Of a DNA stretch of 21,482 nucleotides, positions 417-18,469 are shown one piece after another. Position 1 is the stretch's first letter. Each line of letters opens with the position of its first letter. The position numbers and the translations under genes are program-made. The stretch covers positions 1 to 21,482 of the IMG/VR virus record IMGVR_UViG_3300025012_000307, one strand, 5' to 3'. A model generated the notes under the pieces. It saw nothing but the letters and a program-made list of their open reading frames with translations, was not told where the DNA came from and did no database searches. Source of the DNA: a virus.

Positions 417-1837
417 GATATAGTGCCCTCTCCCTCGATCGTGCATTGATCATTATCAAAGTCCAGCACAAGCGCCGACACACGGGCCCATATCGTCGCC
501 GTGACATGCAGGCTCTCGTCAGTCAGCGTGATTTTCTGTCCGATTTTCGGGATCGTCGTTAGCGGTTTGTTGATCCTCACCCGCAGCCTCTCGGCAATGG
601 TTTTGATATCGGTCAATGCGGTTTCAATGTTCGCCCTGACCGTATGACAAACCGGAGAAATATCTAGATCGCTATCATTCGCATATCGGTATGTGCCATA
701 GATCACTATTTCCCATGTCGGCTGCGAGGCCGTGAATTTCCGCACCTCGGCGGCTATCCAATCACCCTCGGTGCGCTCTTCCTTGATCGTCCGCCACAAC
801 CCGGCAACATGGTCATACCCTTGGAAATTCCAGGATACCGGGGACTCTGCTGGCGTCGGCGGCGCAGCAATAGTGTATTCGATTACCGGATTTCCACCCA
901 AAACGTAGGGAAAAACAAACCCCCAGTACATTCCAGTTGTCCCGGCGGCCGTCGATGATTGCCAGTACGTTGCGGCATTATCGTCAACGGCGCGGACTGG
1001 CAGGTTGGGTGATGTTGAGTCTTTGGCGATCGCAGTGCCACCGATCGTCAGGGTTGCATCGGCGCCGTCTGCTGTTACCCGCATTTCCGCCTCAGCGATC
1101 GCGGCCTTGTTTGCGCCGCCACCCTGCACGACGATATCGTTGAGGATATACCTGTCGGTCTGCGCCGGATATTTCGCGGTAAACCTGGAGATCGGCTCTG
1201 GATATGCGTATGAGCTCGGGAAAATGTCAAACTCGGTCAACGCCATCACCGGACCGTTATCCAGCAAACAGTCGATGAGATAGAGCGTGGTCCCTGAAAT
1301 GTAAAAGCGATGGGAAAAAAATGCGGCGATATCGGAAAGATCATCAACCAGCAGCCGTTGCCCGCTCGATTGATAATCAACATCTGGTGACACAGCCCGG
1401 GCGTATGTCGCGTCAAGCCCCAGCCCGAGAGCGATGCAGCCAGCGTTGAACACCGACCCCAGTGTTCCAGCGTAAGCAGCATCGGTAACGGTAGTCGTCA
1501 GGGATGGCCCAAACAGGTCATATACGATTCCATCCCGTTTGATCTCTGGATTGAGATGGGCGATGCCCTCAAAAACCACAACGGCATTGGATTCGCCGGT
1601 GACTGCGACGCTGATTTTGATCGCGCATGACACCTGGGGGAGATACGGACCGAACAGCGTTGGCAGGATATCGATCTGACCGAACGTCGGCGCGGCGAAC
1701 CCACCATGGACCTGCCGAGTCGCAACCCTGAGTTGCCCAAGGCTGGCCACATACGGATCATAGTAGTGCTCGATGTCGAGATACTCGTTCGAGATGTAGT
1801 ATTTTGTCGCACCGACGGTGAACTCAACGAGTAGCAT
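413..1837 (-). CDS. Tail-tip/baseplate protein with inserted F5/8C (discoidin)-like domain
   Basis: A 474-aa protein lies immediately downstream of the tape measure, overlapping its end by 14 bases; GAGG sits 7 bases before the ATG. Residues 1 to about 210 are beta-rich and resemble phage tail-hub or baseplate proteins. Around residues 280-370 there is a discoidin-like segment: AVDDNAATYWQSS, then MYWGFVFP, then SWNFQGYDH, the usual 'altered composition, then covering sheet, then intact deviation' pattern of F5/8 type C folds. The C-terminal 100 residues return to a tail-like beta region ending in EGEGTIS. By position it should correspond to the distal-tail/hub stage of siphovirus assembly. 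The carbohydrate-type domain suggests surface glycan contact, which is inference. No enzyme motif was seen. Confidence 0.7.
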   Translation of the reverse strand: MLLVEFTVGATKYYISNEYLDIEHYYDPYVASLGQLRVATRQVHGGFAAPTFGQIDILPTLFGPYLPQVSCAIKISVAVTGESNAVVVFEGIAHLNPEIKRDGIVYDLFGPSLTTTVTDAAYAGTLGSVFNAGCIALGLGLDATYARAVSPDVDYQSSGQRLLVDDLSDIAAFFSHRFYISGTTLYLIDCLLDNGPVMALTEFDIFPSSYAYPEPISRFTAKYPAQTDRYILNDIVVQGGGANKAAIAEAEMRVTADGADATLTIGGTAIAKDSTSPNLPVRAVDDNAATYWQSSTAAGTTGMYWGFVFPYVLGGNPVIEYTIAAPPTPAESPVSWNFQGYDHVAGLWRTIKEERTEGDWIAAEVRKFTASQPTWEIVIYGTYRYANDSDLDISPVCHTVRANIETALTDIKTIAERLRVRINKPLTTIPKIGQKITLTDESLHVTATIWARVSALVLDFDNDQCTIEGEGTIS

Positions 1838-4800
1838 ATACCGTCCTCACTCCGAGTTGTCCGCGGCGGGTCTGGGCCGCTACCTGCTCATTAACCATCG
1901 GCAAAAGCACCCTTTTTACCTCCTGCCCGGCTATCTCGATTATGATCGTCGTCGGCCCCTGGCTTCCAGATCCACCCTGGCTGGCTTTTTTGATCACATC
2001 ATCAAGGGATTTTATCCCAGGAGGCAGCGGGATAAGGGCCTCGCGCACATCGCCAAACACGTGTGAGCCGATGCGGGTAGGCCGCACAAACTCGCCGCCA
2101 GCCGCATGATATTTCAGATCCGGATAGTCGCTGTTGCCACCCACCAGATGGGAGTCAAAATTCTCGCTCGACATACTTTCAATCGACCGCCATGCCTGGT
2201 TGATTTGGTTCGCCGATCCGGCAATGGCCCCGGCGGCCGTCGCGCTGGCATCGCCGAGCCCTGACACGCTGTCAGACAAGGCGTAAACCGGATCGGTTGA
2301 GCCGTTGGCGTTATCAGAAAAAGAATCTACCGCCCCGGATAAAGCGCCCGCACCTTTCGCGGCGGCGCTCATGGTGCCATTGAGTTCGTCGGTCCGGGCA
2401 GCCAGGTCGGCGGCCGTAATTGATGCCCCATTCGCGTTATTGCCGAAAACGTCAGCCTCAACCGAAAAATGAGAGAGCGCAAGGGACGAAGCGTCGACAT
2501 TGTCGATCAGTTTCTGCGCAGCAACCGCGGCCTCGTCCTCGGTCATTCCCAAATCAAGCAGGTAAGTATTGAGCTGATTCGCTGACCGGCCGGCCGAGTC
2601 GGCCCCGTTTGTCATGCTGGAAAATGCATCGATGGCGAGATTTGTGGCCTCGTGGACCTGTTCGACCGATGCCGGCAACGGAGCGAACGAATTGATGATA
2701 TCGGCGGCGGCCGATGTAAGTATCGATGTGCCCCCGGTAAGCTCGGAACTCCACTGGTGGCCAGCCCTGGCGGACGCATCATATTGGAGCTGCAATTGCT
2801 TATGACCGTTCTGTAGGGTCAGAATCTGCGTCTCACTATCATACATCGCCTGATTGTATTTCTGCAGGGTCGGCACGGTCTGCAGAATCGAGCCGTCCAT
2901 TGATTTCCACTCGTCGCGGAATTCGCGGATGTTGTCCGGGGTAACCCCGTACTCATCGATCTCGGCGGATGCACTCGGTCGTTTTGATTTGTCGTAGATG
3001 CCCTTGATAGCCAAGGCGGCGGCGACAGCGGCAACAGCATATGGTGCGGCAGCGATAGCCCCTGATGCCATGCTGCCCCCGGTTGTGGCGGCAGTTGAAG
3101 CCGGGGCGGCGGCGGTCGCCGCAGTAGACGTAACGACGGGGGCAGCGGCAGGGGCCACAGAAGGAGCCACAGCGGCGATCCCAACCTTGGCCCCAGCAGC
3201 TTTCATCATGCCGGTAAAAACGCCTTTTTCAATCAGCCCGAGGGTGACCGCGCCCTGGTATGCCGACGTTGCCCCGAGCCCGACCTGTAGCGCACCTACC
3301 CCGGCATTGCCTTTTTTGATATTCTGGGCACCGGCATACATGCCGTAGGCCCCACCGGCAACCGCCAGAGTGCCCATAGCTTTGCCACCCCAGCCGGATC
3401 CGTCAGGGTTTGTCCAGCCCGTTGCGCCTGGGCCAGAAATGCCGCCGCTACCATATCCACCGCCCATTCCGCCGAAGCCTGCAGCCCTAGATACCCCGCC
3501 AATAAAGGCACCGTACATGTCACCGCCATTGATCATGGCAAAAAAAGCGTCTTTGATTCCGGATGCCAAGATAGCAATTAGCATCTCAGCCAACATCCGC
3601 TTGAAAATATTGAGGATATCTCCGAAATTGAACTCAGCGCCCATGACGAGGTCAACAAAATACCCCTGGACGGAACCCATAGCCCGGTTCCATTCCTCGA
3701 CTACAACCGAGGTCGTGGCCTGCATTGATGCCTCAATGGCAACTCCAGCCTTCTTCTCGGCCTGGACCTTGGCCTCGGCATTAACCTGCCAAGCATCCTT
3801 GGTCTTCTCCAAGTTCTGCTTCTGGGAAGAAGTATACATATTGTCATATGTCTGCAACTTCGCCCAAGACGCTTGATTGAGCCTGTTGATTTCCTCAATT
3901 TCCTGCTTCTGTTCATCAGCCAGTTTCTTACGGGCCTTAGCTTCCTTGTCAATCTCGGCTTTTACAACAGCGCCAGTAGCCTTGACGCCACTCTGAATTC
4001 CATCATTAAGTGTCTTAGTACTGGAAAGGGCGACTCCGGCAGCAGCTTTATGGGCTTCTCCACTGCTTTTGACCACCCCAATATAGCCCTTGATAGTCGA
4101 GCCAATCGTATCATAACCCCTATTCGTTTTATCAATATCACTAAGAACTTGCTCGGAAACATTACGGCTTGACCAAGCAAAATCCCCGAGTGAACCCTCG
4201 ATTTTATCAAACGGATTTACGTCGATTTGGCCAATTTTAACCAGGCCATCAAAAATCATATCAAGCGGCGCAAATACCTTCCGCAAACCGTCAAATAAAA
4301 GTTTCAAACTGCCGGCAATTGCTTCGATAGATGCTACGCCAACTAGCTTGATTCCCAGCCAAGCATTATGAAAAAAGCGCATTGTCTCAAGAGTATACAA
4401 TAATGACTTGAGAAGACCAAGAGATATAGCCTCAGATAAACTATCTGCGCTATCTGCTGCGCCGAACAAACCTTCATTAATCTTCTTCATTACATCAGCA
4501 ACAACTGGCATCAAGCGTTCACCAAAAGCAGCTTTCAAATCATCAATATGGGATTCAAAAATTTTCGTCTGATTGGCCAGACCATCCGTAGTCTTGATAA
4601 AATCCCCAACAGCTTTAGTATTACTTTCCAAAACCAGTTGATACATCGCTTGAGCTTTAGCGGCAGCAGTAAGGTCGTCCTTGGTCTTAGCCAAGCCCAT
4701 AGAAAAAGCTTTCTGCTCGACAGTTGCAGCAGTAATTGCCCCGGCAAAGCGCTGGATCGGATCGTATTCGCCGACAATGGCGGAGCGCATCGCCTCCAGC

Positions 4801-5336
4801 ACATCGACCGTCGGCAGGTTATTGAACGAGCCGAGATCGACGGCCAGCTTGATCATATCCGAGGACAATTTCCCGGCCTCGCCCTGGGTCATACCCATGC
4901 CCTGATTGAGCACCTGCAAACTGGCCAGCATATCCATACTGCCGGCCTTACTCATTCCATAAGACGATTGTAATTCTTTTGCCCAAGTAGTAGCCTTATC
5001 AGCCATTCCAGCAAAAACAGTATCGAACTTATTTACTGTTTCGTTCAAATCTGAAGCAGATTTAACTGCCGATACCATTATGGCAGTAAATCCAGCGGCA
5101 ACAGCAGTTCCGACAGCAGCTATACCAAGAGCCAGCGAAGAAAGAGTCCCTAAATTAACATTGCAACTCTTATCAAAATTATTAACGGATTCTCTTAGGC
5201 TCGCGAACCCACGATTGCCATCAATATCAGCCTTTTTGATTTCGGTACCAACTAAGCGGACAGCGGCGATGGTTTTTTCAAGATCCTTCGTATCCGCCTC
5301 TATCTTAGTATAAATTGATCCTAAATCAGTTGACAT
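1824..5336 (-). CDS. Tail tape measure protein
   Basis: This 1170-aa protein is the longest gene in the window. It sets tail length and threads the tail tube; by the usual rule of about 0.15 nm per residue the tail would be near 175 nm (estimate). Evidence: position straight after the tail chaperone pair; an N-terminal coiled-coil-like region; a hydrophobic segment at about residues 62-90; the phage tail tape-measure core (FDTVFAGMADKA, SYGMSKAGSMDML, YDPIQRFAGAI, around residues 100-210); Gly-rich (around 620-650) and Ala/Pro-rich (around 715-780) segments; and a C-terminus with GSHVFGDVREALIPLPPG, typical of these proteins. An AAGGCGG sequence lies 5 bases before the ATG. G+C content changes sharply inside the gene (see findings), as expected for a recombination-prone tape measure. 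Confidence 0.93.
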   Translation of the reverse strand: MSTDLGSIYTKIEADTKDLEKTIAAVRLVGTEIKKADIDGNRGFASLRESVNNFDKSCNVNLGTLSSLALGIAAVGTAVAAGFTAIMVSAVKSASDLNETVNKFDTVFAGMADKATTWAKELQSSYGMSKAGSMDMLASLQVLNQGMGMTQGEAGKLSSDMIKLAVDLGSFNNLPTVDVLEAMRSAIVGEYDPIQRFAGAITAATVEQKAFSMGLAKTKDDLTAAAKAQAMYQLVLESNTKAVGDFIKTTDGLANQTKIFESHIDDLKAAFGERLMPVVADVMKKINEGLFGAADSADSLSEAISLGLLKSLLYTLETMRFFHNAWLGIKLVGVASIEAIAGSLKLLFDGLRKVFAPLDMIFDGLVKIGQIDVNPFDKIEGSLGDFAWSSRNVSEQVLSDIDKTNRGYDTIGSTIKGYIGVVKSSGEAHKAAAGVALSSTKTLNDGIQSGVKATGAVVKAEIDKEAKARKKLADEQKQEIEEINRLNQASWAKLQTYDNMYTSSQKQNLEKTKDAWQVNAEAKVQAEKKAGVAIEASMQATTSVVVEEWNRAMGSVQGYFVDLVMGAEFNFGDILNIFKRMLAEMLIAILASGIKDAFFAMINGGDMYGAFIGGVSRAAGFGGMGGGYGSGGISGPGATGWTNPDGSGWGGKAMGTLAVAGGAYGMYAGAQNIKKGNAGVGALQVGLGATSAYQGAVTLGLIEKGVFTGMMKAAGAKVGIAAVAPSVAPAAAPVVTSTAATAAAPASTAATTGGSMASGAIAAAPYAVAAVAAALAIKGIYDKSKRPSASAEIDEYGVTPDNIREFRDEWKSMDGSILQTVPTLQKYNQAMYDSETQILTLQNGHKQLQLQYDASARAGHQWSSELTGGTSILTSAAADIINSFAPLPASVEQVHEATNLAIDAFSSMTNGADSAGRSANQLNTYLLDLGMTEDEAAVAAQKLIDNVDASSLALSHFSVEADVFGNNANGASITAADLAARTDELNGTMSAAAKGAGALSGAVDSFSDNANGSTDPVYALSDSVSGLGDASATAAGAIAGSANQINQAWRSIESMSSENFDSHLVGGNSDYPDLKYHAAGGEFVRPTRIGSHVFGDVREALIPLPPGIKSLDDVIKKASQGGSGSQGPTTIIIEIAGQEVKRVLLPMVNEQVAAQTRRGQLGVRTVYATR

Positions 5337-5338
5337 TT

Positions 5339-6084
5339 TTACCGCCTTTTCTTTTTGATGGCTTGCTTCTTTACCTGCTGTTTATTCGATCCCGCAATCT
5401 CTTGCAGTACAGCTTTCATCTCTTCTGGCGTTTGCTTCTTTTTGTTAGCCGCCCGTTCCTTTACTAAACTTGGCATAAAATCTTCTGGATACCAAATCTT
5501 TCTTTTCCCGGTTTCGTCCTTAGCTATTGCCATGGAAAAATTGGCGATTGTCGAACTTATTATTCCTGCCGGCAATTCTTCTTGCCCGATCCCAGACCGG
5601 AAAGGTTCAATCCTTTCGTATACCATCCATTCTGCAAATTGATGAGATGTTAATTCCTCAATTAAACAGTCTGGGTGGCTTCTTCCGAGTTCTCTACAAA
5701 GCCGGAAGGCAAAGAGGCGTTCTGGGCGGGCTCGGAGTTTTTTTCCATCTCGTCCAGGAGAGCCTCACCAATGCCCGACAGCCTGGCCCCAATCTCCGAA
5801 AGCCGATGAATAATCGCGGATGATTTCTTTACAAGATCCGGAATGTCCAAATCCGAAAACAGCAACTCACCATTTTCATCAACGACTGTGGCGATCAGAA
5901 TTCGGAAACGAAGGCCAGGCTCTTTTTGATGAGTCATAACCCAAGTATCAAACTCATCCCGCGCCCCAGCAGTCATCTCTTGAACCCATACTGAACCGCC
6001 CCATTCGGGAACCGGGACAAGCCTTTTTCTCAACGGACGAGCTTTCAAAAAATCCAATTTCCCCAAAACTTTGTCTTCGCTCAT
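5339..6084 (-). CDS. Tail assembly chaperone, long form made by -1 frameshift (G-GT type)
   Basis: Predicted fusion of 248 aa: codons 1-116 of the short chaperone, then a -1 shift on A AAA AAC (5743-5737), then 132 codons to the stop at 5339. The -1 frame after the slip reads FRLCRELGRSHPD, then LIEELTSHQFAEWMVYERIEPF. This is the conserved signature of lambda T-like/DUF4035 tail proteins (RELGR...ELT..EFAEWMxYxRIEPF). That signature starts well upstream of the only ATG in the frame (5626), which would cut it in half. No ATG, GTG or TTG occurs between the frame's last TGA and 5626. In lambda-like phages G and GT bind the tape measure and recruit tube subunits, which fits the position between tube and tape-measure genes. 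The C-terminus is Lys-rich (KKQ, KKKRR). Confidence 0.85.
5662..6084 (-). CDS. Tail assembly chaperone, short form (lambda G-like)
   Basis: A 140-aa protein, the zero-frame product of the frameshifting gene. It lies between the tail tube gene and the tape measure, the invariant place of G-like chaperones. The start ATG has AGAGGA 6 bases upstream. It contains VWVQEMTAGARDEFDTW near residues 33-49, a motif seen in this class (tail assembly chaperones with a 'mtaleRdefe' segment), and an acidic tail that ends at a TAA inside the overlap with the -1 frame. It is expected to be made in excess over the fusion form, as in lambda. The family match is by eye. Confidence 0.85.
   Translation of the reverse strand: MSEDKVLGKLDFLKARPLRKRLVPVPEWGGSVWVQEMTAGARDEFDTWVMTHQKEPGLRFRILIATVVDENGELLFSDLDIPDLVKKSSAIIHRLSEIGARLSGIGEALLDEMEKNSEPAQNASLPSGFVENSEEATQTV
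5737..5743 (-). promoter_or_regulatory. Slippery heptamer A AAA AAC for -1 ribosomal frameshifting
   Basis: On the coding strand, codons 114-116 of the chaperone gene read GAA AAA AAC, giving X XXY YYZ in the correct phase. The -1 frame is open only from a TGA about 24 bases upstream of this site, so a slip must happen between there and the zero-frame TAA. This heptamer is the only classic slippery sequence I found in that interval. A 6-bp complementary pair (TCCGAG directly after the site, CTCGGA about 41 bases on) could form a downstream stem, but its spacing to the slip site is shorter than usual. Confidence 0.8.
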
Positions 6085-6149: not shown

Positions 6150-6569
6150 TTACGAAGTTAAGGTCACCTCCCCGGAAATCTTGATTGTTACCGGGGCCGT
6201 AATCTTGTTATCCATTGGGATGCCCATTCCAAGATTGATAACCAGGCCGGCAAAGTCAAGGGTAGTATTCCCGGTGTCCGGCAAAACGATCTGGTAATTG
6301 ACGAGGGTGTCCAATTCGAAATCATCGTTCATATCGGAATAACCAGCCCTGGTGAAATTCATTTCAAGTTCCACCTGACCGGCATCCCTGAACGAAGCAA
6401 TAAACTCCCGGTATCCACCGGTTGAACCAAGGGAAGTTGCATCGATTATACTCCTGCTTTTATTCGGCCCTTGGATACTGTTGATTTCCGCAATAGCAGA
6501 AAAAACCTCCGTGCTCATCATGTTCGATCTTTTAAAAACTGTTCCAACTCCACTTATCGCATTACTCAT
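6150..6569 (-). CDS. Major tail tube protein
   Basis: A 139-aa protein with AGGAGGA 5 bases before the ATG, one of the strongest ribosome-binding sites here, as expected for an abundant virion protein. The sequence reads AEINSIQGPNKSRSIIDAT, then GGYREFIASFRDAGQVELEM, and ends in TIKISGEVTLTS. This pattern is characteristic of lambda V-like/HK97-type tail tube subunits (N-terminal 'sIqGP', a middle 'DaG.v.fe.n', a beta-strand C-terminus). It sits between the tail terminator and the chaperone pair. It lacks the extra C-terminal Ig-like domain found in some tube proteins. Confidence 0.88.
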   Translation of the reverse strand: MSNAISGVGTVFKRSNMMSTEVFSAIAEINSIQGPNKSRSIIDATSLGSTGGYREFIASFRDAGQVELEMNFTRAGYSDMNDDFELDTLVNYQIVLPDTGNTTLDFAGLVINLGMGIPMDNKITAPVTIKISGEVTLTS

Positions 6570-7712: not shown

Positions 7713-8083
7713 CAGTGATACCCAATCATATTCAAGGAAGCGGATTTGCTATAACCGTTTTTAGCTATCTTCCCAAGAGTTCCAGAGGTATCCAAAAGAA
7801 TTGCCATCTGGCCATAACTGGTACCATTCAAACCCATCCCCCACTGCCCTTGATAAGATTCAGAAAGGACATCAACACCAACAGATTTTACTCTCTGATC
7901 CTGTACGCTCAATACATGGGCGGAGAGATATCGCTCAATCTCTTTCAAGGTTTCATCTGTCAACCCAGCTGTTTCCAGCCAGGAAGTAACCATCATATTT
8001 GCAGTATTGATAAAGACATCAATATCGGTCAAAGAAGTATCGATAATGGCAAAGACTTCATCATCAGTTACTCGCGGTGCCAT
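7712..8083 (-). CDS. Head-tail connector / adaptor protein
   Basis: A 123-aa, mostly helical protein. VTDDEVFAIIDTSLTDIDVF, then FINTANMMVTSW, then EIERYLSAHVLSVQDQR, then SVGVDVLSESYQG. This layout (two N-terminal helices that define an 'integration window', a long 'erwlaAHll' helix, and an 'ses..gys' strand) is that of phage head-tail adaptors (gp6/gp15-like, DUF4054 neighbourhood). AGGAGG lies 8 bases before the ATG, which overlaps the stop of the sulfotransferase gene in TAATG. This overlap ties the cargo island physically to the neck genes. Confidence 0.82.
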   Translation of the reverse strand: MAPRVTDDEVFAIIDTSLTDIDVFINTANMMVTSWLETAGLTDETLKEIERYLSAHVLSVQDQRVKSVGVDVLSESYQGQWGMGLNGTSYGQMAILLDTSGTLGKIAKNGYSKSASLNMIGYH

Positions 8084-8760
8084 TACTTACCCTCCTGATT
8101 GAACCATTTCGGTTCGATAAATGCCTTGATCATCGGCTCATTGAATACCAAGCCAACTTTCTCAATCATATCCCTGGCGTAATCCCAATCCCCTGCACAT
8201 AGCCGGGATGGCCAGAAATCGATAATATCCAATTCGGCCGTATGCATTTCTGCAAATCTTTTTTCGTGCTGATCAATCCAAGTCTGCCAGCCTTCAGCAT
8301 CGCGATACGCCCGCATGAATCGCGTCAATTGACAACTGCGGATAATATCTTTATGGTCACGATGAATGATGATCCATTTTGCCCTGGGGAACGCCATATG
8401 CCACATATACCACATTCCAGCGGCTTTGGTGCATTTACAGAACCACTCACCACTTTTATATCCCTGCGACATCATAAGCCGCTGAACAATATCTCTCCAG
8501 TGATCTGCTTCCGGTTGGGAAACTTCAAAGACCTGGCGATTATTCGGGAGTGGTTTCTGACCCATTGGATCAGCCCCAATCTTTTTCAGGTACGGCTTGA
8601 CAATATCAGTTCGGAGTTTGCAATTCTCAAACATTCCCTTCTGGGCATCAATACTGGGGCCATACATCTCCCCACCAAAAGCCCCGCAAATATTGAGCAT
8701 CCCAGCCGTCATTGATGTTCCAGAACGAGCACAACCAACTACCAGAATCGGATCTTTCAT
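8083..8760 (-). CDS. Sulfotransferase-like protein (PAPS-dependent type)
   Basis: A 225-aa protein. The start is set at ATG 8760, not the upstream in-frame ATG at 8787, because 8760 forms an ATGA overlap with the previous gene, has AAAGGAG 5 bases before it, and begins right at the first beta strand: PILVVGCARSGTSMTAGML. CARSGTS (residues 10-16) matches the 5'-phosphosulfate-binding loop. IIHRDHKDIIRSC (about 131-143) matches the 3'-phosphate-binding motif, with Arg134 and Ser142 eight residues apart as in known sulfotransferases. The family moves sulfate from PAPS to hydroxyl or amine groups, often on sugars. The acceptor is unknown; the adjacent glycosyltransferases make a glycan plausible (inference). 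No PAPS-synthesis genes are present, so the donor would come from the host. Confidence 0.82.
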   Translation of the reverse strand: MKDPILVVGCARSGTSMTAGMLNICGAFGGEMYGPSIDAQKGMFENCKLRTDIVKPYLKKIGADPMGQKPLPNNRQVFEVSQPEADHWRDIVQRLMMSQGYKSGEWFCKCTKAAGMWYMWHMAFPRAKWIIIHRDHKDIIRSCQLTRFMRAYRDAEGWQTWIDQHEKRFAEMHTAELDIIDFWPSRLCAGDWDYARDMIEKVGLVFNEPMIKAFIEPKWFNQEGK

Positions 8761-9404
8761 GCATGCTCCTTTACGATTTCTTGCCAAAGGGTTGGAACTT
8801 CAAACGGCCTGGGTTTACCATGGAAAACAAGAACTTTACAATTCGAAGATATCCCGCCAGAACAATGTCGCTTATATGAGTAAATGCTCTCTGGAAAGGC
8901 ATCTTGTAATATTTTTGGGATAACTCTTTTTTCTCTCAGTTTGGCATTCGTATAATCTTCTTCCCCACGAAGTTGCTTGGAGAATTTCTCATAATCGAAT
9001 TGTTCATACAACCAGGACCAATCGCCATTCCAAGCCATAATCCCTGAGATAGTTCTGACTGGTGGCCGGAAAGATCGAATCATCCAAAAGTCTTTTTCGC
9101 TTGAATCAGTAGCCACTTTAAACAGGTCATCAATATTGCCTCTGATCACAGTATCAATCCCAGTCACAACTGTCGGCCCGATATTTCTGAAGACCTCGGG
9201 AACAGACCACCAACCAGGCCAGTTATTGATCAGGGAGATAGAAGTGACGCCATCAATCTTTTCCTTGGAATCTGTAAAACAAATGAAGTCATAAGGAATC
9301 GTCGTATTTGCTCGTACCTGCGCTGCAAGGAGCCGGACGTGCTCTTCTATATAATCCCCTCCTAACTTCAGTACGCAAGCAAATACAGGCATTGTTGACC
9401 TCAT
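8757..9404 (-). CDS. GT8-like glycosyltransferase, paralogue 2
   Basis: A 215-aa protein. The start is set at ATG 9404 (MRSTMPVFACVLKLGGDY): it overlaps the previous stop in ATGA and has GGAGG 8 bases upstream. The in-frame ATG at 9434 would overlap the upstream gene by 34 bases. A GT-A-like layout is visible: an N-terminal strand, YDFICFTDS, NWPGWWS, VVTGIDTVIRGNIDDLF (the place of the GT8 DxD strand), WNGDWSWLYEQFDYEKFSK, and a late VLVFHGKPRPF resembling the GT8 'H..G..KPW' end motif. It is clearly paralogous to the next gene upstream. The first Asp of DxD appears replaced by Gly (GID). Sugar donor and acceptor are unknown. Confidence 0.72.
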   Translation of the reverse strand: MRSTMPVFACVLKLGGDYIEEHVRLLAAQVRANTTIPYDFICFTDSKEKIDGVTSISLINNWPGWWSVPEVFRNIGPTVVTGIDTVIRGNIDDLFKVATDSSEKDFWMIRSFRPPVRTISGIMAWNGDWSWLYEQFDYEKFSKQLRGEEDYTNAKLREKRVIPKILQDAFPESIYSYKRHCSGGISSNCKVLVFHGKPRPFEVPTLWQEIVKEHA

Positions 9405-10036
9405 TCCACTAACCTCCACAGATTCGTTCTCCAAGGCTTGGGATCTCCATGGAAAATGACGATTCCTGGATCTTTAACAAGCCCTTTCCGAACATGGCGC
9501 TTATAACTACAAATCCCTTCGAAGTATTCTTGAATTGCTGTTAAATCAACCCCTTTAGTCAACAAAGCATTTATCTGGTAATTTTCATCACCACGATGGA
9601 GTTTTGATTCCTTCTCAAAGTCAAACTGATCGTATAGCCAGGACCAATCTCCATTCCAGGCCTGCATTCCATTTATGAACTCTCCCGGATGAAAGAACGA
9701 ATCAAGCAAAAAGAAATCCTCTTCCGGGATATGACAGACCATTTTCAAAAGGTCGTCGATGTTCTTCAGGATCATCGTGTCCAGGCCAATAGCAATTGTC
9801 GGCCCTTGATGTTTCCAAAGCTCAACGCAAGACCACCAACCGGGATAATTCTTTTCAAGTTCGACAGTCTCTATTTCTGGGAGTTCATCGGCCTGATCTG
9901 TATAGCAAACAAAACGATAAGGAATCGTCGCATTGCGATCAATCTGCCTTGCGAGCGCTCTCACATGGCCTGGATAATAATCCCCACCAGAGCGAAGGCA
10001 AACGACTATTGAAGGGATCTGATCAATCATAGCCAT
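9401..10036 (-). CDS. GT8-like glycosyltransferase, paralogue 1
   Basis: A 211-aa protein. Two in-frame starts are close together: ATG 10036 (GGAG five bases before) and ATG 10030 (ATGA overlap with the previous stop); I give the first. The layout matches its tandem paralogue: SIVVCLRSGGDY, YRFVCYTDQ, NYPGWWS, IAIGLDTMILKNIDDLL, WNGDWSWLYDQFDFEKESK, CSYKRH, IVIFHGDPKPW. The 'LDTMIL.NIDDL' strand corresponds to the GT8/glycogenin-type 'DADTLVL.NIDEL' with Gly in place of the first Asp, and HGDPKPW to the C-terminal GT8 motif. A role as a cytoplasmic sugar transferase is inferred from this; similarity was judged by eye. Confidence 0.74.
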   Translation of the reverse strand: MAMIDQIPSIVVCLRSGGDYYPGHVRALARQIDRNATIPYRFVCYTDQADELPEIETVELEKNYPGWWSCVELWKHQGPTIAIGLDTMILKNIDDLLKMVCHIPEEDFFLLDSFFHPGEFINGMQAWNGDWSWLYDQFDFEKESKLHRGDENYQINALLTKGVDLTAIQEYFEGICSYKRHVRKGLVKDPGIVIFHGDPKPWRTNLWRLVE

Positions 10037-10524
10037 TCACTCTCCGGCACCATTCCAATTTTAACTGCCCTGCTTTTCCCGTGAGGTGTTCCCCAAACTT
10101 CACCAGCCGGGATATCTTTCGTTACAAAAGAGTTGGCATGAACGAAGGCATTCTCACCAATATTTACACCAGGAGCAATCACAGCACCAGCCCCAATCCG
10201 AGCACCATTGCCTATAACAGCCCGCTCGATCTTTGGAACTGCCCGACCCTGATTTGCAATATTCTTTTCGTTGGTCATTACCACTCCAGGTCCAAAGAAA
10301 ACATTATCCCCGATAGTGGCTTCTGCAGTAATATGACATTGGGACTGGATTGTCGTATTACTGCCAATCTTGGTATCCCTTTCGATCACTACATTGTGGC
10401 CAATGATCGAGTTCTTGCCGATCTCCACATTATCACGCAGGACAACAAAGTGGAAAACCTTGGCATTAATAGCGATTTTGACCCCTCGATCAATTACAAC
10501 GTATGGGCTGATAAATCCTGACAT
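10027..10524 (-). CDS. Hexapeptide-repeat acyltransferase, WbpD/WlbB-like
   Basis: A 165-aa protein, almost entirely left-handed beta-helix: successive [IV]G-x(4) turns such as VEIGKNSIIGHNVVI, TKIGSNTTIQ, ATIGDNVFFGPGVV, AVIGNGARIGAGAVIAPGV, NIGENAFVHANSFV. GPGVVMTNEKN followed by a loop and the ending FVTKDIPAGEVWGTPHG is typical of UDP-2-acetamido-3-amino-sugar N-acetyltransferases (WbpD/WlbB), which use acetyl-CoA to finish O-antigen sugars. The full-length family is about 190 aa, so this is slightly short. AGAGGT lies 4 bases before the ATG, and the gene overlaps the previous one by 31 bases. The exact acyl acceptor cannot be read from sequence. Confidence 0.85.
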   Translation of the reverse strand: MSGFISPYVVIDRGVKIAINAKVFHFVVLRDNVEIGKNSIIGHNVVIERDTKIGSNTTIQSQCHITAEATIGDNVFFGPGVVMTNEKNIANQGRAVPKIERAVIGNGARIGAGAVIAPGVNIGENAFVHANSFVTKDIPAGEVWGTPHGKSRAVKIGMVPESEWL

Positions 10525-11141
10525 ATGACCTCTAATGGTTTTCGTTCAAATATTTCAAGGGCGCCACCAACTGTCGCGTTTATAATCCTCAAACCAACCT
10601 GCGCTGCATCTCTTTTTATCGCCGGCCAATGCTTCATAAACCTTGGATATGGATCGTGCAATTTCCCTTCTTTTTTATCCCACCGGACTTCATAATCATT
10701 ATGCCAGTGAGACTGTTTGTCCTTTGGGTCATCCGGGTTCTTCATATCGAACCCCAAGAGAACAACACTTGTAGCCCCCAGCCAATAAGCAAAATTAACA
10801 GCAGAGGCACCAGAATTACCATTCCAACCAATATGGGTTCGTCTTTTTGTTTCGAGTCCTGATTGTTTGCTCCTTCCGACATATCGCACCCGCCCTCTTC
10901 TCTGCCCTGGCAAAGTCGCCGAACAAGTAGCAATCAAACCACCATACTCATTGATTGCCGGCAAATTCTCTTCGTACCATCCTTTATCCCCGAACCAGCA
11001 AGCATCAACCCAAGGGCCGAGTTTATATGCCTGATTCACTCCAATTACTCGGTGATTATGGATGAGAGATAAATCTTGTTTTAAAAGACTGGCTCCACCA
11101 CCGATAATGAATACCGTCGAGCCCGGCCAGAGCGCCGGCAT
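10494..11141 (-). CDS. DUF115/GT42-like Rossmann-type protein, probable glycosyltransferase
   Basis: A 215-aa protein from ATG 11141 (MPALWPGSTVFIIGGGASLL). The open frame extends up to 11279, but those 46 codons lie inside the preceding gene, are basic and low in family-like features, and carry no family signal; a GTG at 11159 is a second possible start. Motifs: TVFIIGGGASLLKQDLSL (residues 9-26), RVIGVNQAYKLGPWVDACWF (31-50), GWNGNSGASAVNFAYWLGA (105-123) and VVLLGFDM. This arrangement (G.GpSL, N.ay...pwvD, GnSga.A...a..lGa..i.LlGfDm) matches the DUF115/MptE-like group and the sialyltransferase family GT42. Relatives recur in phage virion modules, sometimes called norphogenetic protein. Reaction not determined. 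Confidence 0.68.
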   Translation of the reverse strand: MPALWPGSTVFIIGGGASLLKQDLSLIHNHRVIGVNQAYKLGPWVDACWFGDKGWYEENLPAINEYGGLIATCSATLPGQRRGRVRYVGRSKQSGLETKRRTHIGWNGNSGASAVNFAYWLGATSVVLLGFDMKNPDDPKDKQSHWHNDYEVRWDKKEGKLHDPYPRFMKHWPAIKRDAAQVGLRIINATVGGALEIFERKPLEVICQDLSAHTL

Positions 11142-11151
11142 TTCCCAAAAA

Positions 11152-11631
11152 TCAGCCACGTGCTTCGAGTATTGCTTCCCGGAGATGATCTTCAGTTTCG
11201 TATTCTTCCATGATCTCGATTCCTTCCTCTTCCATGAGACTGATAAGGGCATCCCAATCGAGTGCGCCAAGATCGACAATTTCAGTCTTGGGGATCTCCA
11301 TCATTTTTCCCATGATTTTTTCCGCCTCGCCTTTTTTCATTGGGGTATCATTCAGGGGTTTATCGGGATTATCTGGATTGATAATATTGTACATTCCCCG
11401 CTGCACTCTGACCAGATGGAGTTCGTTCGGTGGAGCAATTGGCTCTTTAATCTTTACCGGTTCGGGAATCGATTTAACCGCCGTCAGACAATCATAATCC
11501 GCCTCGAATGAACCAAGGAATCCCTCCGGCACTTCGACTACATCGCCAGGCACTACCGAATATCTTTTCCCCTCATACTTAAAGGAATGCCGACCTGTTT
11601 TTGCTTTCTTTCTGTATTTACAAAGGTTCAT
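11152..11631 (-). CDS. Hypothetical head-module protein with HeH/LEM-like C-terminus
   Basis: A 159-aa protein with AAGGAGGA 4 bases before the ATG. The N-terminus (residues 15-45) looks like a small beta domain (KYEGKRYSVVPGDVVEVPEG), common in small phage head proteins. The acidic C-terminal 40 residues (DWDALISLMEEEGIEI, then TEDHLREAILEARG) resemble the HeH/LEM helix-extended-loop-helix motif found in some DNA-packaging and head-associated phage proteins such as lambda FI; this is a weak, by-eye match. It lies between the major capsid gene (with a hairpin between) and the sugar cassette, ending 10 bases before the next chosen start. Function unknown. Confidence 0.7.
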   Translation of the reverse strand: MNLCKYRKKAKTGRHSFKYEGKRYSVVPGDVVEVPEGFLGSFEADYDCLTAVKSIPEPVKIKEPIAPPNELHLVRVQRGMYNIINPDNPDKPLNDTPMKKGEAEKIMGKMMEIPKTEIVDLGALDWDALISLMEEEGIEIMEEYETEDHLREAILEARG

Positions 11632-16168: not shown

Positions 16169-16290
16169 GGCCTCTCCAGACTACACCGCGTAATATTCGC
16201 CACCTCAACCCCATCCACCATAGTCGGTTGCCAGATGTTGGGGCGGTCCTGGATGCACAGATCAAACCGCCTGCCCAGCCATTCAGGCAT
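16165..16290 (-). CDS. 41-aa hypothetical protein
   Basis: A short open frame starting MPEWLGRRFDLCIQD and continuing RPNIWQPTMVDGVEV. The ATG sits in ATGCCTGA, overlapping the last 8 bases of the SGNH gene, with GAAGGTG 7 bases upstream; the stop overlaps the next ATG (ATGA). It is soluble and mixed-charge, with two Cys. No family recognised. Coupling on both sides argues that it is translated. Confidence 0.55.
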   Translation of the reverse strand: MPEWLGRRFDLCIQDRPNIWQPTMVDGVEVANITRCSLERP

Positions 16291-18469
16291 AAGTTGTCAC
16301 CTTCAGTATCTCCACATTACTCGCTGGCTTGCCCCAGACTTGGGATTGTATCGCCCCGATTGACTTGTCTATCGTGTACCCCCATCTCAGATGAGTACTT
16401 GGGTTTACCGAGCCATCATAATTCGCTTCAGCCCCCCATGTGATATCTGCATCGGCCTCTTTCTTATACCCGATATACTGCTTCGTCCCGGCAGCATTGG
16501 TCTTCCATGCAATCAAAGGAGTCTCGCCTCTCGCCCATCCACCAGCCACTGTCACAGTAGCAGTGTTCGTGCCATCGAATGCTTTCAGCACCCCACCTGC
16601 GGCTGCGTAGATACCACCTGTGGCGCTGTTGTTGAATGCAAGGATATTCGTGTCACTGGTCACTTCGGCTGAAGATGCGCCGAGGTAGATCAAAGCGGCA
16701 GCGGTGAACACTGATGGCTGGATTCGTTGGACGGAAATCCAGCCAATTGTCAAGTCAGTATTAGCAACATTCCGGGTGAAAGATATATGCGGACCAGTTG
16801 CTACAAAAAAGACAATTTTTGTTTCTGCTTTAGTAAACGTGACATCAGATGCAGCCATGCCCGATGTCTTTATGCTGCCTGATGTGTAGTTTGATACTTT
16901 TACTACCATCCTATATGTCGATCCAACAGTCAGTACGTTGGTCTTGGCAAACGTTAAAGCGGGGCTAGTGGTCCCAGACTGAAATCTCATCCCGCTCGCA
17001 ACATCAGTAATGGTGTGGGTAGCGTCCTCGCCAGTTACAGCCCAGTCAGCTTTTCTTGCCAGGGTTGATGATGTTCCTGGAGAGGTTTCTATACTATCAG
17101 TAATATTTGTAAGTTCCGCCCACGGCGCTACAGCATCAAATTTCCCCGCCATAACCGCAGCACCGGCAGAATTAGGATGCATGTGGTCGCCAGTGTCATA
17201 GGCCGCAAGAAGCGCATCTGGGTTTTCTGGGTCTTCCAGCGGCGTGTAATTATCCACAACAACCACACCAGAGAAAGACGCGGCGAGAGAGGGTATCCAG
17301 GTGTTTAGCGTATCTGTTACCTCCTGCCTACCGGCACTCCACAAAGTTGCCCCTTTCCAGGGGGTGAGCAAGGACAGAGCTACTCGGCACCCAGTCGATG
17401 TAAGGGAGGAAAGTATTGCTGTTAGATTTGCCTGTATTGTCGCAATAGGAACATCAGTGGCAATGTCATTAATTCCAATCAGCAGCGCCACATAAGACGC
17501 ATTTAGGGCATACACATCAGTCTGAAGTCGTGCCAGCACATCGGCGGTTTTGTTTCCACTAACGCCCTTATCATAAATTACTGTTTTTGGATGTAATTCT
17601 TTTAAAACCAGGGGGTAGTCGGCCAATGTGATTGAGTCACCAATAGCCACAAGCGAGTACATACCACCAAGAGATCTCTTAATTCCTAAATTCAGCGGGA
17701 TAGCTGCCCCTATGCCTAATGATGTCGCTGCGGTTGATGGGATCAAGACAGATTCCGTTGTGCTCCTGACATACGGCAGAGAATATGCACCGAGGGTAAG
17801 CTGAGGTTGCCATACCGAAACAGTTCCGGTTGCAACTGCACTCGCACCGAGCCCGAAGCGAAAAATCGCTGTATCTCCGACCGCTCCCGCTGTAACCTTG
17901 ACCGACAGTTTGAATGTTCCAGCGGCAGGGACAGCAGTCTCGTCGGCTACGATAACTCCGTCTTTCATCACGACGATGGTTCCGCCAGTCAGTGAACAAT
18001 ACTCAATGTCAGCGTACCTCAGCACCCCATCAGTCGTCACCATCACATCGAAAGTATAGACTGCAAGTGCTGCGACCGCTTGTGATAGGCTGAGATACCC
18101 CCTTGATGCTGTGCCGCTGAATGTCAGTTTATTCTCTCCTTCAACATCCGTTACGGCCATCGTCGGGGAGCCGACAACAGTATACGTCCATCCTGTTGGG
18201 GTCGTTCCTGGCGAACCTGCAACCGCGCCAGCCAACACTGAATTGACAGCCAGTTGGGTATACGCAGGCTGCACCATCACCCCCCGCCCAGGATGATTGA
18301 CCGGGAATGCTACCATGTTGCCGTCAGCGTCGGGGACTGTGCCTGCTGCTGAGGTTTGGATTTGGGGGCCTATGGGGCAGGTAGTGGGTGTCTTGGCGTT
18401 CCACAAGGAGAGAAGACCAGCGGGGTATCTTTTTCTACGGCCACCAATTAAACCAAGCGATAAATTCAT
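16283..18469 (-). CDS. SGNH/GDSL-hydrolase virion protein (probable glycan esterase)
   Basis: A 728-aa protein that starts in TAATG with the previous stop, so translation is probably coupled. Residues 1-260 form a beta-rich, Gly/Ala/Thr-rich region with a lectin/carbohydrate-binding look (YTFDVMVTTDGVLRYADIEY, QLTLGAYSLPYVRSTTES). Residues about 270-450 form an SGNH hydrolase: LVAIGDSITL (Ser279), KGVSGNKTADVL (Gly), GINDIA (Asn334) and DHMHPNSAG (Asp428, His431). Blocks I, II, III and V are all present. The remaining 280 residues repeat the beta-rich style (TFAKTNVLTVGSTYRMVVKV, LIYLGASSAEV, VTVAGGWARGE). Such proteins deacetylate surface polysaccharide as tail fibres or spikes. Its location between portal and MuF genes is unusual. 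Confidence 0.82.
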   Translation of the reverse strand: MNLSLGLIGGRRKRYPAGLLSLWNAKTPTTCPIGPQIQTSAAGTVPDADGNMVAFPVNHPGRGVMVQPAYTQLAVNSVLAGAVAGSPGTTPTGWTYTVVGSPTMAVTDVEGENKLTFSGTASRGYLSLSQAVAALAVYTFDVMVTTDGVLRYADIEYCSLTGGTIVVMKDGVIVADETAVPAAGTFKLSVKVTAGAVGDTAIFRFGLGASAVATGTVSVWQPQLTLGAYSLPYVRSTTESVLIPSTAATSLGIGAAIPLNLGIKRSLGGMYSLVAIGDSITLADYPLVLKELHPKTVIYDKGVSGNKTADVLARLQTDVYALNASYVALLIGINDIATDVPIATIQANLTAILSSLTSTGCRVALSLLTPWKGATLWSAGRQEVTDTLNTWIPSLAASFSGVVVVDNYTPLEDPENPDALLAAYDTGDHMHPNSAGAAVMAGKFDAVAPWAELTNITDSIETSPGTSSTLARKADWAVTGEDATHTITDVASGMRFQSGTTSPALTFAKTNVLTVGSTYRMVVKVSNYTSGSIKTSGMAASDVTFTKAETKIVFFVATGPHISFTRNVANTDLTIGWISVQRIQPSVFTAAALIYLGASSAEVTSDTNILAFNNSATGGIYAAAGGVLKAFDGTNTATVTVAGGWARGETPLIAWKTNAAGTKQYIGYKKEADADITWGAEANYDGSVNPSTHLRWGYTIDKSIGAIQSQVWGKPASNVEILKVTTYA

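Follow-up and report, generated by a model that had tools for sequence, protein, structure and literature searches.

A phage tail chaperone pair very probably joined by programmed -1 frameshifting at a conserved A_AAA_AAC heptamer

In a 21,482-nt stretch of viral DNA (the window), two overlapping reading frames at 5339-6084 lie between the genes for the tail tube and the tape measure. Is the second frame a gene of its own, or is it translated by ribosomes that enter from the first frame? A sequence-only reading had proposed that a programmed -1 frameshift links two tail chaperone frames. We examined this proposal using protein families, the conservation of the slip site, and the surrounding RNA in related loci.

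Results

Two frames with tail chaperone domains

The features that we discuss first are:

5662..6084, minus strand: G-like tail assembly chaperone ORF, 140 aa, 0 frame (ORF listing; phrog_344)
5737..5743, minus strand: slippery heptamer A_AAA_AAC, in phase (in-phase XXXYYYZ at the homologous place in related loci)
5339..5742, minus strand: T-like region, entered by the slip and read in the -1 frame as far as the TAA at 5341-5339 (PF06223, phrog_337)
5339..6084, minus strand: predicted frameshift product, 248 aa (translation with a -1 slip)
6150..6569, minus strand: major tail tube protein, upstream neighbour (PF16461, E = 9.7e-09; phrog_158, E = 5.3e-16)
1824..5336, minus strand: tape measure protein, downstream neighbour (phrog_1535, E = 1.3e-21)

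The sequence-only reading had placed the heptamer in phase at 5743-5737, and the codons bear this out: in the 0 frame, the slip site is read as GAA (5745-5743), AAA (5742-5740), and AAC (5739-5737), and its phase relative to the G-like ORF (6084-5662) is X_XXY_YYZ. That reading also held that the -1 frame opens just upstream of the heptamer and has no usable start before 5626. Indeed, the nearest upstream stop in this frame is a TGA at 5767, the frame is open from 5764, and the first ATG, GTG, or TTG is the ATG at 5626 (there is an ATT at 5662). The length given for the G-GT type protein, 248 aa, is what we obtained by translating with a -1 slip.

For the 0-frame protein, we found a match to phrog_344 (tail assembly chaperone; E = 1.1e-22) and none in Pfam at E up to 1. 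The -1 frame protein matches Phage_tail_T (PF06223; E = 2.4e-12) at residues 32-118 of the frame translated from 5743-5339, which corresponds to 5650-5390, and the tail protein family phrog_337 (E = 2.9e-10) at residues 7-131. The ATG at 5626 is residue 40, so the lambda T-like domain does begin upstream of it, as had been claimed. The related claim that a gene call at 5626 would cut a conserved domain stands with a change of emphasis: the PF06223 match would be shortened by just its first 8 residues, and the larger loss is from the phrog_337 match (33 residues of its span, among them the motif FRLCRELG at residues 13-20). The family suggested for the -1 frame, DUF4035, did not hold up; it was absent from the Pfam matches at E up to 1, and the family is Phage_tail_T. 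In a profile search of solved structures with A1, the sole match was to a ribosomal protein (E = 0.21).

The gene order, tail tube, then chaperone pair, then tape measure, is that of lambda, and the PF16461 gene is lambda-type. Among the relatives described below, we found phrog_344 in all 12 of the G frames that were scanned and PF06223 in all 13 of the T frames (window included in both); for the other relatives, we relied only on open frames and tblastn.

Elsewhere in the window, a cassette at 8083-11279 separates a connector-like gene from the capsid region. It encodes a sulfotransferase-like protein (PF13469, E = 4.8e-09), two proteins that are alike by eye and have no Pfam match (8757-9434 and 9401-10036), a hexapeptide transferase (PF00132, E = 1.3e-28), and a protein whose MptE-like match is weak and falls short of the cut-off. 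Such a cassette is unusual inside a structural module, and our guess is that it is possibly involved in glycan modification. A GDSL/SGNH hydrolase domain (PF13472, E = 8.6e-21) is present in the 728-aa product of 16283-18469, which a single small ORF separates from the portal gene.

The heptamer is conserved across related loci

How surprising is the heptamer? When we shuffled the codon order of the G ORF 5,000 times, 7.4% of the shuffles had an in-phase heptamer in the overlap. In 5,000 synonymous shuffles, an in-phase heptamer arose in the overlap 42% of the time and at the very same place 27% of the time. Judged from the window by itself, the heptamer is no more than moderately unlikely and might be there by chance, so the case rests on its conservation in relatives.

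A search with the T half found 18 viral loci, of which one is identical to the window; all 18 have AAAAAAC in the same phase at the homologous place. (A search with the G half as the single query protein gave one locus, which shares its contig with L001.) With an alignment as the query, we confirmed 160 viral relatives and kept the best 80 of the 160, ranked by similarity of the T half, which might mildly bias the set toward the same first residues. Together with 3 loci from genome assemblies, this gave 83 loci, which include the contigs of the 18-locus search and comprise 68 distinct sequences over 350 nt. L001 and L021 are identical to the window over the 350 nt around the site and are not independent evidence. 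Every one of the 83 loci has an in-phase XXXYYYZ at the homologous place: AAAAAAC in 79, GGGAAAC in 2 (L072 and L073), and GGGAAAA in 2 (L102 and L103). The last two are contigs of Planctomycetes MAGs that encode a related T domain and match only residues 2-44 of the query.

The changes in the type of heptamer, from AAAAAAC to GGGAAAC, or to the in-phase GGGAAAG of the lambda-like Escherichia phage PhiR12_2, show that slipperiness is kept, rather than one particular sequence.

For finer comparisons we used 62 sequences, including the window, that are distinct over 45 nt; L102, L103, and rows with an identical 45-nt stretch were left out. These sequences are related: grouped by identity of the T region, they form 43 groups at 70% and 25 at 60%. 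In the codon before the slip, the residue varies (V, T, I, L, E, S, or A), and the final base is A in 61 of 62. The two codons that follow are AAA in 61 and AAC in all 62. For comparison, further upstream in the same open frames, AAA makes up 0.58 of the lysine codons and AAC makes up 0.30 of the asparagine codons (frames were counted from the upstream stop, and hence cover some bases that precede the start codon). In AAC, the C doubles as the first base of a conserved leucine codon in the -1 frame, so that C is partly explained by coding.

A rival reading: the T-like region as a separate gene

The rival that fares best, which we nevertheless consider very improbable, is that the pair is two separate genes, with a 95-aa T-like protein starting at the ATG at 5626 and perhaps translated by coupling after the G stop (5664-5662), which is just 35 nt away. 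Such a protein would lack the residues described above, FRLCRELG included. Furthermore, in 61 of the 62 sequences, the first ATG, GTG, or TTG of the -1 frame is at +42 or later, and in 61 of 62 there is no start upstream of the FRLC motif, which in the window occupies +36 to +47. The exception is L072, which has a GTG at -81 within a longer open stretch. A second gene with its own start would also leave the conserved heptamer unexplained.

Annotated phages point in both directions. In the Streptomyces phages Dubu (MK937595) and phiSASD1 (NC_014229), which have GGGAAAC at the homologous place, the chaperone pair is annotated as a joined CDS. In Moraxella phage Mcat11 and Thermobifida phage P1312, the records list two CDS. 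The second CDS of Mcat11 (L106:1501-1836) begins at an in-frame TTG at +33. Starting there would cost the -1 frame no more than its first 11 residues, so ribosomes could translate most of the T region of this phage with no slip. However, Mcat11 itself has AAAAAAC at the junction, followed 5 nt further on by a stem of 6 perfect base pairs and a loop of 4 nt, and its separate T gene is probably a missed frameshift annotation. P1312 is distant (27.4% identity); its T-like frame is also -1 relative to its G-like frame (L107:986-1049), and within about 100 nt of the junction we found no XXXYYYZ heptamer of the type that we sought, as two separate genes would have it.

Probable stimulatory elements in the relatives

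Across the relatives, we identified a 6-bp stem with a 3-nt loop that begins 6 nt after the heptamer (columns 14-19 with columns 23-28 of alignment A3). By three measures, none of 500 shuffles scored as high as the stem: 79.3% of its cells are paired (66.1% in shuffles), both sides are changed in 51 cells (mean of 20.3 in shuffles), and its covariation score is 0.275 (0.101 in shuffles). Two other measures were not above the shuffles: double changes occur in 3 pairs, a number reached by 477 of 500 shuffles, and there are 10 further pair types, reached by 482 of 500. When we slid the stem along the alignment, every control was lower on the fraction paired, double-changed cells, and covariation, the nearest being +3 (60.2%, 19, and 0.120). 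The +1 control had 4 pairs with a double change, one above the real stem. All 6 pairs form in 31 of the 62 sequences, 5 pairs in 9, 4 pairs in 9, and 3 or fewer in 13, so that 40 have at least 5; among 43 representatives at 70% identity, 21 have 6 pairs and 29 have at least 5. Folds of single sequences from four hairpin-bearing relatives were modest (z from -1.64 to +0.20).

There is also a Shine-Dalgarno-like (SD-like) stretch upstream of the heptamer. The mean pairing energy of 12-nt stretches with the anti-SD is -8.1 kcal/mol at offset 6, as compared to +0.9 to -3.2 kcal/mol at offsets 24 to 117. With a line at -8 kcal/mol or better, which was our choice, 42 of 62 sequences have SD-like pairing within offsets 0-9 and 20 fall short. 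Synonymous codon choice favours the SD-like stretch as well. At -11, 44 of 50 glutamate codons are GAG (p = 9e-13; 0.39 upstream); at -14, 36 of 48 lysine codons are AAG (p = 5e-6; 0.42 upstream); and at -8, GAG is used in 17 of 24 (p = 0.0025), although all of our p values for codon choice ignore relatedness. GAG is favoured further off too, at -20 (29 of 40, p = 2.6e-5) and -41 (12 of 17, p = 0.011). We saw no preference for GAG at -23 (16 of 45, p = 0.76) or for AAG at -41 (11 of 25).

In 30 of the 62 sequences, SD-like pairing that reaches the -8 kcal/mol line is combined with a stem of 5 or 6 pairs. In many relatives, the SD-like stretch and the short hairpin probably raise the rate of frameshifting.

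Both putative stimulators are weak or lost in the window

5716..5730, minus strand: place homologous to the relatives' 3' hairpin, degenerate, 2 of 6 pairs (alignment; fold compared to shuffles)

In the window, with 2 of 6 stem pairs, there is no downstream stem-loop of the dnaX kind. The 92 nt of RNA from the slip onward fold no better than shuffles (z = 0.98; 0.79 for a second stretch), and we rejected a simple hairpin. The window's SD-like pairing is weak as well, at best -6.4 kcal/mol at offset 15 and -3.7 kcal/mol within offsets 0-9, which is short of a dnaX-like element. Because these stimulators are weak or lost, the window's frameshifting rate is probably lower than in its relatives, or else is set by another element.

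At longer range, the window's 5736-5731 can form 6 of 6 pairs with 5689-5684, a stem that we set aside as too weak and too constrained by coding. Among the 62 sequences, 4 have 6 of 6 of these pairs, 16 have 5 of 6, and 42 have 4 or fewer. In Rfam, neither the window nor L044 or L038 had a match at the gathering score.

Two unlikely alternatives: slippage by the polymerase and sequencing error

The window has seven consecutive A (5744-5738), and RNA polymerase might drop one of them, which would let the fusion be read without a ribosomal shift. Transcriptional slippage usually requires longer runs. Moreover, relatives with AAAAAAC have a run of six A unless the preceding base is also A; L072, L073, Dubu, and phiSASD1 have GGGAAAC instead; and the covarying 3' hairpin and the SD-like codons of the relatives point to the ribosome. 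We consider transcriptional slippage even less probable than separate genes. Finally, a single G-T gene broken by a missing or extra base at this homopolymer is scarcely credible, as the two-frame arrangement is repeated in all 83 loci, on contigs from many samples, and in named phage genomes.

Discussion

The two halves match tail chaperone families, the gene order is that of lambda, the heptamer is conserved even as its type changes, a start for the whole T-like region is missing in 61 of 62 sequences, and two phages carry joined annotations. For these reasons, we consider it very likely that the chaperone pair at 5339-6084 is expressed by programmed -1 frameshifting at A_AAA_AAC, of the lambda G/GT kind, as the sequence-only reading had proposed. 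The locus has the features of that type: a chaperone ORF between the tail tube and tape measure genes, an in-phase heptamer in the overlap, and a T domain without a start of its own for its whole length. Some ribosomes would slip back one base at 5743-5737, so that the pair would yield the short G-like protein (140 aa) and the 248-aa G-GT fusion. By analogy with lambda, the G part would serve as a coat for the tape measure protein; fewer copies of the T part would be present, and these would recruit tail tube subunits.

Frameshifting of this kind is textbook knowledge and is found in lambda and in many tailed phages; Dubu and phiSASD1 already have joined genes. Our addition is modest: a three-part cassette in many relatives and its decay in the window's branch. 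Among the paper titles listed, we found none on this lineage's hairpin and SD-like stretch, which may still have been published. In practice, the gene call changes from a truncated 95-aa gene to one joined 248-aa product. The locus also adds a well-conserved A_AAA_AAC case to the tail chaperone frameshifts, with compensatory changes that support a hairpin in many relatives.

A broader hypothesis, which could as easily turn out wrong as right, is that a large phage lineage, mostly uncultivated, sets its ratio of G to GT by a dnaX-like cassette (an SD-like stretch, A_AAA_AAC, and a covarying 6-bp hairpin), and that the window's branch lost both stimulators and kept the slip site. If so, the window's branch and its relatives would form a natural series for asking how well tail assembly tolerates different rates of frameshifting.

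Comparison with known systems

The G/GT tail assembly chaperones of lambda were reportedly described by Levin in 1993 and by Xu in 2004 and 2013. Like lambda, the window has a chaperone ORF between the tail tube and tape measure genes, an X_XXY_YYZ heptamer near its 3' end, and a T domain in the -1 frame. In contrast, the heptamer of lambda is G_GGA_AAG rather than A_AAA_AAC, and the SD-like stretch and hairpin are extra elements in many of the window's relatives. According to the PRFect paper (PMC10885494), 28 phage genomes of the chaperone-frameshift kind were reportedly found by Xu et al., and joined tail assembly chaperones are annotated 2397 times in 3679 SEA-PHAGES genomes. Dubu and phiSASD1 share the window's gene order and -1 junction, but are 35.4-36.5% identical to its two halves, and their G stop comes directly after the heptamer.

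Another paper reports that the A_AAA_AAG of dnaX gives about 50% frameshifting in E. coli and that A_AAA_AAC is less shift-prone there than A_AAA_AAG (PMC5009743). The archaeal virus HCTV-2 is said to use A_AAA_AAC. The window differs from E. coli dnaX in that the protein is unrelated, the heptamer is A_AAA_AAC instead of A_AAA_AAG, and both stimulators are missing. In the dnaX cassette, the SD is spaced upstream of the heptamer, and many of the window's relatives resemble it, with an upstream SD-like stretch, an A-rich heptamer, and a downstream stem-loop.
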